Assembly (NCBI GenBank): GCA_945877315.1
Contig: CAMCRP010000002.1
Coordinates: forward strand, 1 to 64,000
DNA: 64,000 nt
Direction: 5' to 3'
From: an uncultured Ruminococcus sp.
Lineage (GTDB): Bacteria; Bacillota; Clostridia; Oscillospirales; Ruminococcaceae
In this document: piece by piece, positions 40,264 to 44,921 of the stretch
How the letters are laid out: every line of letters starts with the position of its first letter
How positions within the stretch are numbered: the first letter of the stretch is position 1
Program-made: the position numbers and the translations under genes
Notes under the pieces: model-generated
Told to the model about the DNA's origin: nothing
Database searches by the model: none
The model's input: the letters and a program-made list of their open reading frames with translations, nothing else

Positions 40264-41295
40264 TTACATATTATTATTTGTCGTACTTCTCCGAAAAATA
40301 ACAGGTGTAATAACCTTGTGGACAGGCGTTTCAAGAGGAGTTGGTTTTCGCTTTTTTCTCTCGTTTATCTGCATCATCAGCAGTTCCATTGCCTCATTTG
40401 CCATTGCATCTATCTGCTGACCGACCGTGCTTATGGGGACAACAGCTTCTCTTGAAATAGAGGAATTGTCAAAGCCGACTATCTTGTAATCTTCGGGCAG
40501 ATTGCCGTATTTTCTGATAATAATATTAAGCAGAATATTTGCATGGGTGTCGTTTGACATAAAAATACCCTTGCATTTTCCGCTGTATTTTTTCTCTATA
40601 TTTTCAAGCAAACCTTCAATAACAGCAGATGTTTCGGAGTAGCTGTTTCCCATATCCGTAAGTATAAGCTCGTGTGGGATATTTCGCTCTTTGCATATAT
40701 CGCAGAAGCCTGTTATTCTGCCAAAAGCGGGAACGTCCTTTGAAACGTCCGAATTTATATGGATAAGCACATCGCTGCCGCTTTTGACAAGCATTCCCGC
40801 TGCCTGCATACCGCCCATATAGTTGTCTGTATTTACGCTGCAAACATATTTGTCCTCACGCTCTATGGTAACGATAGGAATGTTATAGGTTGCAAGCTCC
40901 TCCGAGGGAATGGTATGGCTGAGAATTATCATTCCCTCAATTTTATAGGCAAGCAGCTCTGCAATATATTTCCGTTCGGTGTCCTTGTTTTCGTTGCCTG
41001 CAAAAACAAGAAACTTATAGCCGTATTTATCGTATGTGGAAAGTATTTTATCCAATACTTCCGAATAATAATGAAGAAAAAGATTAGGTACAATTATGCC
41101 GATAAACTCCGTCTTTCCGTTTGCAAGGATTCGGGCAACCTTGTTTTCCTTATAATCGAGGGCAACAAGAGCATCGGCTATCTTTTGCTGATTTTCAAGG
41201 GTCAGCGAGTCGGGATCGTTAAAATATCTTGATATTGTGGTCTTTGAAAATCCCGTATATTTAGCTATATCATTAAAGGTTACATTCTTTTTCAT
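40264..41295 (-). CDS. LacI-family repressor of the sucrose/fructoside operon
   Basis: 343 residues, ATG 41295 behind AAGGAGGC. Headpiece VTFNDIAKYTGFSKTTISRYFN, hinge, and a sugar-binding core ending with KIVGFDNSSISREAVVPIST. It is divergent from the operon of GH32 hydrolase and fructokinase, and the intergenic region carries perfect GTAACCGGTTAC-type palindromes, the likely operators at both promoters. By context a ScrR-like sucrose or fructose-responsive repressor. Confidence 0.87.
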   Translation of the reverse strand: MKKNVTFNDIAKYTGFSKTTISRYFNDPDSLTLENQQKIADALVALDYKENKVARILANGKTEFIGIIVPNLFLHYYSEVLDKILSTYDKYGYKFLVFAGNENKDTERKYIAELLAYKIEGMIILSHTIPSEELATYNIPIVTIEREDKYVCSVNTDNYMGGMQAAGMLVKSGSDVLIHINSDVSKDVPAFGRITGFCDICKERNIPHELILTDMGNSYSETSAVIEGLLENIEKKYSGKCKGIFMSNDTHANILLNIIIRKYGNLPEDYKIVGFDNSSISREAVVPISTVGQQIDAMANEAMELLMMQINERKKRKPTPLETPVHKVITPVIFRRSTTNNNM

Positions 41296-41435: not shown

Positions 41436-41499
41436 TTGACATATGACCATATTCGGGTTATACTGTAAACATAAAGTAACCGGTTACTTTACCGGTTAC
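41436..41499 (+). promoter_or_regulatory. Promoter and overlapping tandem operator of the sucrose operon
   Basis: TTGACA (41436-41441), 17 bp, TATACT (41459-41464). The palindrome GTAACCGGTTAC (41476-41487) follows at about +5, then TTT and ACCGGTTAC. Binding there would block initiation. The same unit appears on the repressor side, so looping or cooperative binding is possible. Confidence 0.82.
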
Positions 41500-41534: not shown

Positions 41535-42410
41535 ATGAAGAAAGCAATATCGGCGGGAATTTCCGCAATGCTGCTTGCAGGGTGCTTGACCGGCTGCGGC
41601 AAAAGCGAAATTCAGCCCGGAGATGTGGCAGGCTTCGACGAGGGCGAGATAAAGCGCAAGACCGATTGGGCGATAAACATTCTCGGTCTTGAGGAATACC
41701 GAAACAGAAAGCCGAAAAATCTTTCGGGCGGTCAGCGTCAGAGAGTTGCGCTGGGCAGAGCTATCGTTAAAAATCAGAAGGTTTTCCTTATGGACGAGCC
41801 TCTTTCAAACCTTGACGCAAAGCTCAGAGTTAGCATGAGAAACGAGATAAGCAAGCTTCACCGTGAGCTTGGCAGCACCACCATTTACGTTACTCACGAT
41901 CAGGTTGAGGCTATGACAATGGCTGACCGTATAGTTATTATGAAAAGCGGCGTTATACAGCAGGTGGGCAAGCCTATGGAGCTGTACGAGCACCCCGCAA
42001 ACAAATTCGTTGCAGGATTTATCGGTTCTCCTCAGATGAATTTCTATAATGTTACTTTGACCGGTGACAAGGTGCATTTTGAAGGCGGCGAAACTATGAC
42101 TGTTCCTGCTTCTGTACTTTCAAAATTGAACGGCAAAAGCGGCGAAATGATAATGGGTATCAGAGGCGAGGACATCAAGCTTGACCCTCAGAGCATTTCC
42201 GTATATGAAGCGGACAAGAAGAGTGCCGTTGTGGAGAATGCCGAGGTAATGGGAAATGAGAATAATCTGTATTTCACCTTCGGCGGCAGTCAGACAATTG
42301 CAAGAGTTTCAAAGTATGAGATAAGCGACGTTGGTGACAAGATAGATTTCGTTTTCAATCCGTCAAGAATACATTTCTTTGACAAGAACACGGAGGTTTG
42401 CTATGTCTGA
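41535..42410 (+). pseudogene. Chimeric ORF: lipoprotein signal of a sugar-binding protein fused to the C-terminal part of an MsmK/UgpC ATPase
   Basis: 291 residues behind AAAGGAGCAGG. Residues 1-37 are a lipoprotein signal (LLAGC, LTGC) as in ABC sugar-binding proteins. From about residue 38 the sequence is MsmK-type ATPase: EYRNRKPKNLSGGQRQR (signature at 63-67), Walker B FLMDEP, the H-loop YVTHD, then the TOBE domain to the end. The Walker A lysine and Q-loop are missing. The simplest explanation is an in-frame deletion that removed the rest of the binding protein, probably two permease genes, and the first ~100 codons of the ATPase. The product could not hydrolyse ATP and might be exported wrongly. 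Confidence 0.85.
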
Positions 42411-43707
42411 TATTATTCGTATGAAAGCTCCTAAGGGCTGGATAAATGACCCCAACGGATTTATATATTACAAGGGCGAATATCACCTTTTCTATCAGCA
42501 TTTTCCATACGCTCCACAGTGGGGAAGAATGCACTGGGGACATGCTGTAAGCGCCGACCTTGTTCACTGGGAGCATAAGGATATTGCTCTTTTCCCCACA
42601 AAGAAAAATGACCGCAGCGGCTGCTTTTCGGGCAGTGCTGTGGAGCATAAGGGCAAGCTTCATATTTTCTACACAGGCGTTAATTACACCGAGGAAGATC
42701 CCGAAAATATCAACTGCTGTCTGAATGATGAATTTACCGCAGCACAGCTTTCCATTACCTCCGAAAACGGCTATGATTTTGATAATATAAACGGTAAATT
42801 TACCGTTATTCCTCCTATTGAGGATAAAAATATCGGCTGCAAAAATCACACCCGTGACCCGAAGGTGTGGTGCGGAAAAGATGCCTGGTATATGGTTGTC
42901 GGCAGCACCGCAAATAAAAAAGGACGTCTGCTTTTCTATAAAAGCACCGACCTTGCAAACTGGGAATATCTGAACTTTACCGAGAAGGACGGAATGGGCT
43001 GGATGTGGGAATGTCCCGACTATTTTGAAGCGAACGGAAAGGGCGTTATCGTATTTTCACCCATGGGTTTTTTAAAGGACGAAAAGCCCTATGACTCAGT
43101 TGCAATATGCGCTCTTGCGGAATTCTGCGAGGAAACGGGCGAGATGAATATTTCCGACAGTTGGCAGCTGCTTGACTGCGGTGAAGATCTGTACGCTCCC
43201 CAGAGCAATGTTGATAAAGACGGTAACAGAGTTGTAATTGCGTGGGCAAGAATGCCCGAGCCGTTTGAGAAAAACCGCAGCGGAATTTACTGTATTCCGA
43301 GAGTGGTTGAGGTGAAGGAAGGTCACATTTATTTCCGTCCGCACCCCAATGCGGTCAAGCTGTTTACACGAAATATTTCTTCTCCCACAGAAGCAGGTGA
43401 GGGCGGTTACAAGCTGAGCCTTGATATGAAAAACGGCGAGAAAATTAACATCGGCGGATATATTCTTTCAAGGGATAATGACCGCATAAAAGCCGACCGT
43501 TCCAACGTTTTCGCAGGTCATAACGAGATAAAATGCGTCTTTGAAACTCCCGAAATAAAAGAGGGAAATCATCTTGATATTTATGTTGATAAGAACCTTA
43601 TTGAGGTATATATCAACAACGGAGAGTATGTGCTGACAAATACGGTTTACGGCTTGTCCGATGAAATTTCCGCTGAAAATTATGAGCTGTACGCCGTTTC
43701 GGAATGA
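42403..43707 (+). CDS. scrB: GH32 beta-fructosidase / sucrose-6-phosphate hydrolase
   Basis: ATG 42403, eight nt before the end of the chimeric ORF, with CGGAGGTTTG in front. 434 residues, five-blade propeller plus C-terminal beta sandwich. Nucleophile Asp16 in WINDPNG, SGCFSGSA, the stabiliser in TRDPKVW and the acid/base Glu in WECPDYF are all present. No signal peptide, so intracellular hydrolysis of imported sucrose or short fructans is expected. Whether the natural substrate is phosphorylated cannot be read; with an ABC rather than PTS locus, unphosphorylated sucrose or kestose is more likely. Confidence 0.92.
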   Translation: MSDIIRMKAPKGWINDPNGFIYYKGEYHLFYQHFPYAPQWGRMHWGHAVSADLVHWEHKDIALFPTKKNDRSGCFSGSAVEHKGKLHIFYTGVNYTEEDPENINCCLNDEFTAAQLSITSENGYDFDNINGKFTVIPPIEDKNIGCKNHTRDPKVWCGKDAWYMVVGSTANKKGRLLFYKSTDLANWEYLNFTEKDGMGWMWECPDYFEANGKGVIVFSPMGFLKDEKPYDSVAICALAEFCEETGEMNISDSWQLLDCGEDLYAPQSNVDKDGNRVVIAWARMPEPFEKNRSGIYCIPRVVEVKEGHIYFRPHPNAVKLFTRNISSPTEAGEGGYKLSLDMKNGEKINIGGYILSRDNDRIKADRSNVFAGHNEIKCVFETPEIKEGNHLDIYVDKNLIEVYINNGEYVLTNTVYGLSDEISAENYELYAVSE

Positions 43708-43717
43708 GGTGTTTTGA

Positions 43718-44674
43718 ATGAAAAAGTATGATGTTGTTGCATTGGGTGAATTGTTGATAGACTTCACTGAAAACGGCATAAGCACACAGGGAAATCCAAT
43801 ATTTGAAGCCAACCCGGGCGGTGCTCCCTGCAATGTTCTTGCAATGCTGCAAAAGCTTGGAAAGAAAACTGCATTTATCGGAAAAGTCGGAAACGATATT
43901 TTTGGCAAACAGCTTACCGATGTGGTAAAATCAGCGGGAATTGACGTTACAAATCTTGTGACGGACAGCAAAGTTCCCACAACTCTTGCCTTTGTTCACA
44001 CACTTGCGGGCGGTGACAGAGAGTTCAGCTTTGTCCGTGACCCCGGGGCTGATATGATGCTCAGAAAAGACGAGATAGACGAGGAAATTCTCAGATCCGC
44101 AAAAATTTTCCACTTTGGCACTCTTTCATCAACACACGAGGGTGTGCGTGAGGCTACACGATTTGCAATAGACATTGCAAAGGGAAGCGGTGCACTTATT
44201 TCCTTTGACCCCAATCTTCGTCCGCCCTTGTGGAACTCTCTTGAAGATGCAAGGCGTGAGATAGAATACGGTCTTGAAAAATGCGATATTCTGAAAATTT
44301 CCGATAATGAGATAGAATTTATGACGGGTCTTACCGATTATGACAAGGCGGTAAAAGGGCTTATGGAAAAGTACAATATTAAGCTTGCCTTTGCCACACT
44401 CGGCAAAAAAGGCAGCCGTGCATATTACGGTGACTTAAAAGCAGAGTGCGGAGTGTTCAAGGTCGATACCATTGAAACAACAGGCGCAGGAGATACATTC
44501 TGCGGAAGTGCTCTGAATTATGTTCTTGAACACGATATAAACTGTCTTGCGGAGAATGACCTGAGAGAGCTTCTTACCTTTGCAAACGGGGCTGCTTCAC
44601 TTATAACGACACGCAGAGGGGCATTGAAGGTAATGCCCGAAAAGGAAGAAATACTTGAACTTATGGGGAGATGA
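43718..44674 (+). CDS. scrK: Fructokinase (PfkB/ribokinase family)
   Basis: 318 residues, ATG behind GAGGTGTTTTG. N-terminal VVALGELLIDF, substrate loop PGGAPCNVLAML, and the C-terminal anion-hole motif TTGAGDTFCG with catalytic Asp. It phosphorylates the fructose released by the GH32 enzyme (and perhaps by sucrose phosphorylase) to fructose 6-phosphate. Eleven nt after scrB, clearly co-transcribed. Confidence 0.93.
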   Translation: MKKYDVVALGELLIDFTENGISTQGNPIFEANPGGAPCNVLAMLQKLGKKTAFIGKVGNDIFGKQLTDVVKSAGIDVTNLVTDSKVPTTLAFVHTLAGGDREFSFVRDPGADMMLRKDEIDEEILRSAKIFHFGTLSSTHEGVREATRFAIDIAKGSGALISFDPNLRPPLWNSLEDARREIEYGLEKCDILKISDNEIEFMTGLTDYDKAVKGLMEKYNIKLAFATLGKKGSRAYYGDLKAECGVFKVDTIETTGAGDTFCGSALNYVLEHDINCLAENDLRELLTFANGAASLITTRRGALKVMPEKEEILELMGR

Positions 44675-44678
44675 TATT

Positions 44679-44921
44679 ATGAAAAATGTTACTATCAAGC
44701 TTGACACCATCAAAGATGTAAATAATTTCGTAAGTGCGGTCACCACTTTTGAATGTGATTTTGATATTGTTGCGGAAAGGTATGTTGTTGATGCAAAGTC
44801 CATAATGGGCATTTTCAGCCTTGACCTAAGCAAGCCACTTGAACTTCACATCAATACTGATGATGAAAAGGAGATAAGTGCTGTATTAAAGGCAATTTCG
44901 GCTGTGCTTGTTTCCGAATAA
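44679..44921 (+). CDS. HPr-like (Crh-type) regulatory protein lacking the phospho-histidine
   Basis: ATG 44679 behind GGGGAGATGA; 80 residues. The fold signature KSIMGIFSLDLSKPLEL matches HPr/Crh around the regulatory serine (Ser41 here, Ser46 in HPr). The segment where HPr has its His15 (HARPA) reads TIKDVNNFV, with no His. Crh in Bacillus likewise lacks the histidine and acts only in catabolite control through Ser46-P and CcpA. It lies 4 nt after the fructokinase gene, so it may couple sugar-operon activity to HPr-kinase signalling. Diverged function is possible. Confidence 0.8.
   Translation: MKNVTIKLDTIKDVNNFVSAVTTFECDFDIVAERYVVDAKSIMGIFSLDLSKPLELHINTDDEKEISAVLKAISAVLVSE

Follow-up and report, generated by a model that had tools for sequence, protein, structure and literature searches.

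The window (the whole 64,000-nt stretch of DNA that was analyzed) carries a sucrose operon in which a GH32 gene and a gene for a kinase of the PfkB family precede one for a short HPr-like protein, with a LacI-family gene divergent from the operon. The product of the GH32 sucrose hydrolase gene (positions 42403–43707, + strand) matched the Pfam GH32 N-terminal domain with 275.1 bits (cut-off 22.1) and the scrB family model TIGR01322 with 289.6 bits, below the cut-off of 356.4. The PfkB-family kinase (43718–44674, + strand; Pfam PfkB) is probably a fructokinase, and its best NCBIfam match, the fructokinase model PRK09434, was below the cut-off (189.2 vs 450). The last gene (44679–44921, + strand) encodes the 80-aa HPr-fold protein P0001, with the translation MKNVTIKLDTIKDVNNFVSAVTTFECDFDIVAERYVVDAKSIMGIFSLDLSKPLELHINTDDEKEISAVLKAISAVLVSE, hereafter called shHPr, a label used for short His-less HPr-like proteins. 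Only 4 nt lie between the fructokinase stop codon (44672–44674) and the ATG at 44679, and a good Shine-Dalgarno sequence, GGGGAG (44665–44670, + strand), lies within the terminal part of the fructokinase gene, in line with the translational closeness of the two genes noted in the initial annotation. The latter also correctly described the operon as free of PTS genes, since none besides the HPr-like gene itself was found among the five genes of the operon region scanned.

The divergent LacI-family regulator gene (40264–41295, − strand; profile matches) encodes a protein without the HPr-binding triad of CcpA, as seen from the residues read. A candidate operon promoter, TTGACA-17-TATACT, agrees with the consensus at 11 of 12 positions (41436–41464, + strand; consensus match only), and an inverted repeat at 41476–41499, comprising the palindrome GTAACCGGTTAC and a second half site, is a putative LacI-type operator. 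The operon had been described as LacI-controlled; the regulator gene is present, but the control itself is only probable. The next open reading frame (41535–42410, + strand) is an in-frame fusion in which a lipoprotein signal peptide, recognized by eye, precedes an ABC ATPase of the MsmK/UgpC type that lacks its first third, as indicated by profile matches and by the gene order in a related genome (L090, see below). Genes for the solute-binding protein and the two permeases are absent from the operon, and only this fused ATPase remnant is left. A search of the rest of the window assembly gave short ATPase-like matches but no importer, and the deletion is either a real loss or an assembly fault.

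The shHPr of the window matched the Pfam PTS-HPr model (PF00381) with 33.7 bits against a cut-off of 23. The match is confined to model positions 20–78 of 81, and therefore the part of the model with His15 is unmatched. In the AlphaFold2 model (mean pLDDT 95.7, 26-row alignment), strands at residues 2–6, 27–32, 35–38, 54–59, and 77–79 and helices at 11–22, 42–46, and 63–72 were predicted. The sequence, the Pfam match, and this model agree that the HARP motif and the catalytic His15 of PtsH are absent. The initial annotation had considered the His15 motif replaced; the histidine is indeed missing, but the change is better described as a shortened active-site loop, since strand 2–6 leads to helix 11–22 through a short segment with no histidine. 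In contrast to this loop, the kinase-site stretch VDAKSIMGIFSLDLSKP is retained, and alignment to HPr and Crh showed that Ser41 (codon 44799–44801, + strand) is the equivalent of their Ser46, the site of HPr kinase, which confirms the earlier description of an 80-aa HPr-like protein with a Ser46-type KSIMGIF segment. The best 38 Foldseek matches of the model in PDB were all HPr or Crh, the top HPr matches having TMq of about 0.7. VIA comparison gave a best Z of 9.6 to HPr (rmsd 2.3, 75 aligned residues) and Z of 8.8 (1zvv) and 8.1 (1mu4) to Crh, while the first non-HPr row, representing unrelated NiaR domains, had Z of 7.7; the proposed structural comparison with Crh thus yielded an HPr fold. 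No family for shHPr was found in PHROGs.

The genome of the window encodes one HPr kinase/phosphorylase (HPrK/P, C11) with both Pfam domains (PF07475, 235.6 bits); its gene is complete, contains the P-loop GESGVGKSETA, and scored 271.8 bits vs PDB 1ko7. Full-length HPr with His15 is encoded three times (C4, C17, and C78), and three short HPr-like proteins were also identified. Both HPr kinase and canonical HPr, which the initial annotation had suggested looking for, are thus present. The C4 HPr is bifunctional, possessing both His15 and Ser46, and the kinase therefore has another substrate. The C17 (L013, 5714–6001) and C78 (L014, 7080–7337) proteins keep His15 and have Arg/Lys at the Ser46 position, and the C78 gene adjoins that of enzyme I. 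A division of labor between His-only and Ser-only HPr proteins was considered in view of C17 and C78, but it would be partial at most because C4 keeps both sites.

The role of a CcpA cofactor, proposed for the protein in the initial annotation, was not supported. Tyr295 and Lys307 of CcpA participate in binding of HPr-Ser-P. R304 of Bacillus subtilis CcpA contacts Ser46-P (PMC4591507). The best CcpA-like protein of the window genome (C42) scored 208.6 bits against the TIGR01481 cut-off of 442.35, and no protein of this genome was above it. The CcpA model had 14 matches there (E ≤ 1e-10); five LacI proteins and two non-LacI proteins were read, and the other seven matches stop short of the DNA-binding part of the model. 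The Y295-R303-K307 triad was found in none of the five LacI proteins (C42, C13, the window LacI, C2:10.5 kb, and C17). At these positions C42 has Tyr-Asp-Ser, with Asp where the Arg of CcpA contacts Ser46-P, and C13 retains the triad Arg alone. An excess of cre sites in the window was ruled out, since the motif scan gave 15 sites vs 21.5 expected by chance. Of the properties on which the annotation had been made to depend, HPr kinase and the HPr fold are thus present, but a recognizable CcpA is absent.

A 91%-identical shHPr orthologue in the same gene order was found in the MAG of another uncultured Ruminococcus (L090), whose operon is fuller and comprises genes for a solute-binding protein, permeases (one of which was scanned), an MsmK-type ATPase, GH32, PfkB kinase, and shHPr. 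The dN/dS values for the window vs L090 were 0.079 (shHPr), 0.096 (GH32), and 0.108 (PfkB). The shHPr gene of the window is thus under purifying selection, and this value together with the L090 orthologue shows that its retention and arrangement are beyond chance. A survey of 396 genomes of the same family revealed relatives of the window shHPr (E ≤ 1e-8) in 255; apart from the window protein and a G834 fragment, the matches listed were 49% to 62% identical to it. Reading of gene order in 15 stretches around selected rows of this survey, a subset of the multi-copy genomes, revealed two more sucrose operons with intact copies: permeases-ATPase-GH32-PfkB-shHPr with an 8-nt overlap in G878, and GH32-PfkB-sucrose phosphorylase-shHPr in G807 (TIGR03852, 779.7 bits). 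The linkage to sucrose operons is therefore recurrent. In the sucrose operon of G834, the HPr-like gene (L411, 8207–8371), which lies where the PfkB gene ends, is truncated after the KSIMG site. The intact sucrose-operon copies of the window, L090, G878, and G807 formed one clade with support of 98/94 in a tree built from 41 short proteins; this branch thus has intact members in four genomes and a truncated one in G834. A second copy adjoining an MtaB-like gene is present in G878, G807, and the window genome (C68). A horizontal origin from Lachnospirales was considered because in the first tree the window and L090 copies grouped within a set dominated by Lachnospirales (98/92), but it was dropped since, with the added sucrose-operon copies, they form their own clade outside this set.

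Beyond the sucrose operons, the family was surveyed in 243 genomes (95% completeness requested) of a class that, judging from the named relatives, is Clostridia. An shHPr was found in 130 genomes with the A3 profile at E ≤ 1.8e-14, a cut placed at an empty gap before the next match (5.1e-11). In 122 family loci, an MtaB-like gene, named after the annotation of the Monoglobus locus, was located within three genes of the shHPr gene in 100 cases and directly upstream in 99; no recurrent transporter cluster was found among the genes adjoining these copies. The kinase-site Ser is kept in all 80 shHPr rows (75 distinct proteins) obtained by searches that were not motif-seeded and retained if they scored ≥50 bits against the family profile, and it is also invariant in alignments A2 and A3. 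Outside the kinase site, R34 and Y35 are invariant and D49, K52, and P53 nearly invariant in the family alignment. At several loci (L074, L055, L075, L413, L422, L423, and L424), two or three short HPr-like genes are arranged in tandem, and in a divergent His-less branch (L083–L085, L087, and L089) DAKSIMGIFSLDL is replaced by DAKSILGLM[SN]LD[YF]. The named relatives are mostly gut and rumen fermenters. No study of a short His-less HPr from these bacteria or phages was found among the listed matches to titles and beginnings of abstracts, in a search that covered few subscription journals, and this branch of carbon control appears unstudied.

The distribution of shHPr follows that of the kinase and showed no overlap with that of triad-bearing CcpA in the genomes read. 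HPrK was found in 189 of the 243 genomes, including 129 of the 130 with shHPr, and only one of the 54 HPrK-negative genomes had shHPr. CcpA with the strict triad (Tyr-Arg-Lys, Phe allowed for Tyr) was present in 40 genomes, all of them HPrK-positive and shHPr-negative; that is, in 40 of 113 genomes without shHPr vs none found among 130 with it, and in none of the 54 HPrK-negative genomes. No triad-bearing CcpA was thus recognized in 149 of 189 kinase genomes, and 129 of these 149 contain shHPr. A match at E ≤ 1e-75 was obtained in 87 genomes, and the CcpA signature was read in 82 of them, at one locus per genome (two for G380, G402, and G581); of those left out (G048, G429, G464, G554, and G559), four are shHPr-positive. 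Among the 130 shHPr genomes, 39 had such a match and 35 were read, the other 91 being CcpA-negative on score alone; all 40 triad-positive genomes had matches at E ≤ 1e-107. The mutual exclusion leans on the scoring of 22 genomes with borderline A3 values (5.1e-11 to 9.0e-9) as shHPr-negative, since 20 of them are CcpA-positive. The row of one such genome, G239, is a full-length HPr with GLQLRP, and comparable borderline matches of a phylum search (L186–L199) were full-length HPr in 14 of 14 cases, with the motif HARP in 13 and GLEARP in the other. By hand counts, CcpA with the triad occurs in 10 families and shHPr in 41, with none in common; the pattern is thus phylogenetically clumped and may reflect few events. 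In addition, LacI proteins in which Lys replaces the Arg of CcpA (G517 and G581) or Tyr and Arg occur without Lys (G356, G444, G494, and G402) were found in shHPr genomes, and such partial triads, like that of C13, may represent an atypical CcpA.

Members of the family also occur on mobile elements. A tblastn search matched nine phage records, seven with at least 80% query coverage, some of them labeled as complete genomes of Enterocloster phages; four of the nine were read. A pattern scan of IMG/VR yielded 83 relatives, and 79 of the 80 fetched were readable His-less proteins (phage and viral loci L200–L203 and L205–L284). The invariance of Ser in this viral set is no evidence of conservation because the search pattern contained it. 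PHROGs had no family for three phage shHPr-like proteins. The third short HPr-like gene of the window genome (C93; L016, 6504–6821) is flanked by genes for a relaxase of the MobA/VirD2 type and a ResIII/DEAD helicase, and those for ParA and ParB are close by.

The sequence of the window shHPr fits a Crh-like substrate of HPr kinase. Our preferred reading, which we hold to be evenly balanced between right and wrong, is that shHPr may be an HPrK/P-controlled regulator rather than a carrier, acting through a partner other than CcpA at a dose raised by sucrose. This reading has a computed basis, namely the fold, loss of His15, conservation of Ser, completeness of the kinase gene, linkage to the operon, purifying selection, and occurrence together with HPrK and not with CcpA. 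That shHPr accompanies the kinase and keeps its Ser without exception speaks for a kinase substrate; the loss of His speaks against a phosphocarrier, and the lack of CcpA against the role usually played by Crh. Points that weigh against the proposal are the bifunctional C4 HPr as another kinase substrate, the clumped distribution with CcpA absence judged largely by score, the partial triads, the Z of 7.7 reached by NiaR domains, and the loss of the importer from the window operon. According to this proposal, shHPr would be a regulatory HPr paralogue unable to carry PTS phosphate, with a signal read out only via phosphorylation of Ser41 by the HPr kinase/phosphorylase of the cell. The signal would pass to a partner other than CcpA, since no recognizable CcpA was found in the genomes carrying shHPr. 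Sucrose would relieve the local LacI repressor, the operon would then make shHPr next to fructokinase, and the pool of Ser-only HPr would increase in step with the entry of fructose-6-phosphate. A rise in fructose-1,6-bisphosphate would switch shHPr to its Ser-P form, the direction of this effect being presumed. Such an operon-encoded copy would be most simply explained by dose, with sucrose raising the messenger and the supply of fructose-6-phosphate together. Most plausible as partners would be flux enzymes, for example methylglyoxal synthase (a partner of Crh in Bacillus), and the sugar importer.

The first of these partners has a precedent in a known non-CcpA target of Crh: unphosphorylated Crh of B. 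subtilis inhibits methylglyoxal synthase (MgsA), and Ser phosphorylation releases it, as reported in PMC9631020, citing Landmann 2011. By analogy with this reported action, unphosphorylated shHPr could restrain MgsA until released by HPrK, thus providing a valve for overflow when glycolysis is flooded by sucrose. MgsA (E ≤ 1e-10) is encoded in the window genome (C24) and in 117 of 130 shHPr genomes vs 43 of 113 others, which fits an MgsA partner; however, no MgsA match was obtained in 13 shHPr genomes, and this co-occurrence is confounded by lineage because both genes may merely track the same clades, so we consider this specific version unlikely. In the strict Crh role, shHPr-Ser-P would serve as a cofactor of a CcpA-like LacI protein and link sucrose use with global repression. 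The Ser site, the kinase, the Crh proteins among the fold and profile matches, the CcpA-like C42 (208.6 bits), and the part-triad LacI proteins of some shHPr genomes are consistent with it. Nevertheless, the Tyr-Asp-Ser of C42, the absence of the triad from all five LacI proteins read in the window genome, the lack of shHPr genomes found with a triad-bearing CcpA, and the lack of a cre excess in the window make this role very improbable.

Sugar entry offers another target, since in lactobacilli HPr-Ser-P controls non-PTS permeases. Local inducer exclusion, in which shHPr-Ser-P would throttle sugar entry via the ABC importer of the operon (with its MsmK-type ATPase) or via fructokinase, agrees with this behavior and with the presence of an ABC importer beside shHPr in L090 and G878, but the window genome keeps the shHPr gene while the importer was not found, and the mtaB-side copies have no recurrent transporter cluster; we therefore regard it as decidedly unlikely. 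It is quite improbable that extra shHPr acts as a kinase sink, competing for HPrK/P and keeping the C4 HPr unphosphorylated at Ser during sucrose use. The kinase sites of the two proteins are similar, and a small protein ending an inducible operon would suit titration, yet conservation beyond the kinase site (R34, Y35, D49, K52, and P53) suggests a partner surface of its own. Finally, a degenerate, non-functional HPr duplicate is hardly credible: His15 and the loop are gone and the sucrose-operon copy of G834 is truncated, but the dN/dS of 0.079, the invariant Ser, and linkage conserved in four genomes speak against decay.

Returning to the reading of shHPr as a kinase-controlled regulator with a non-CcpA partner, it may be extended, tentatively and with more doubt than confidence, to much of the class (presumably Clostridia), where HPr-kinase signaling could proceed without CcpA via a single-site mini-HPr messenger that has been copied to sucrose operons, phages, and mobilizable elements. 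If this is true, the sucrose-operon copies would couple the messenger to one sugar, and the phage and mobilizable copies may reset or mimic the carbon signal of the host. This is a concrete and testable proposal for carbon sensing in kinase genomes that have no recognizable CcpA (149 of 189), most of which (129) have the mini-HPr. The sucrose-operon copy would be a natural example of messenger dosage that may be controlled by a single sugar, and the presence of copies in phages suggests that interfering with this pathway is worthwhile.

Among known proteins, Crh of Bacillus shares with shHPr the HPr fold, the absence of His15, a conserved Ser46-type site, and the presence of HPrK/P. Against NF010354, which we take to be the model of Crh, the window shHPr scored 28.5 bits, below the cut-off of 123. 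Unlike Crh, shHPr has a shorter loop at the active site and LDLSKP after the kinase-site helix, and its host has no recognizable CcpA. Its genes are located by mtaB or in sucrose operons and not by whiA and glmR, which are the neighbors of crh in B. subtilis (PMC10714963). Full-length Crh-like proteins (GLQLRP and GLEARP) do occur in the wider samples, in G239 together with a triad-bearing CcpA; His15 is replaced by Gln in G239 (L429, 224–511) and by Glu in L188. With HPr (PtsH), shHPr has in common the fold, a PF00381 score above the cut-off, and the KSIMG kinase site, but it is without His15, and therefore no PTS phosphotransfer is expected. The short "HPr family phosphocarrier protein" encoded beside mtaB in Monoglobus belongs to the same family, as indicated by the shared T/S-I-x-x-V-x-x-F and Y-x-[VI]-D-A-K-S-[IL]-M-G motifs, whereas the window copy represents a separate sucrose-operon branch (98/94).
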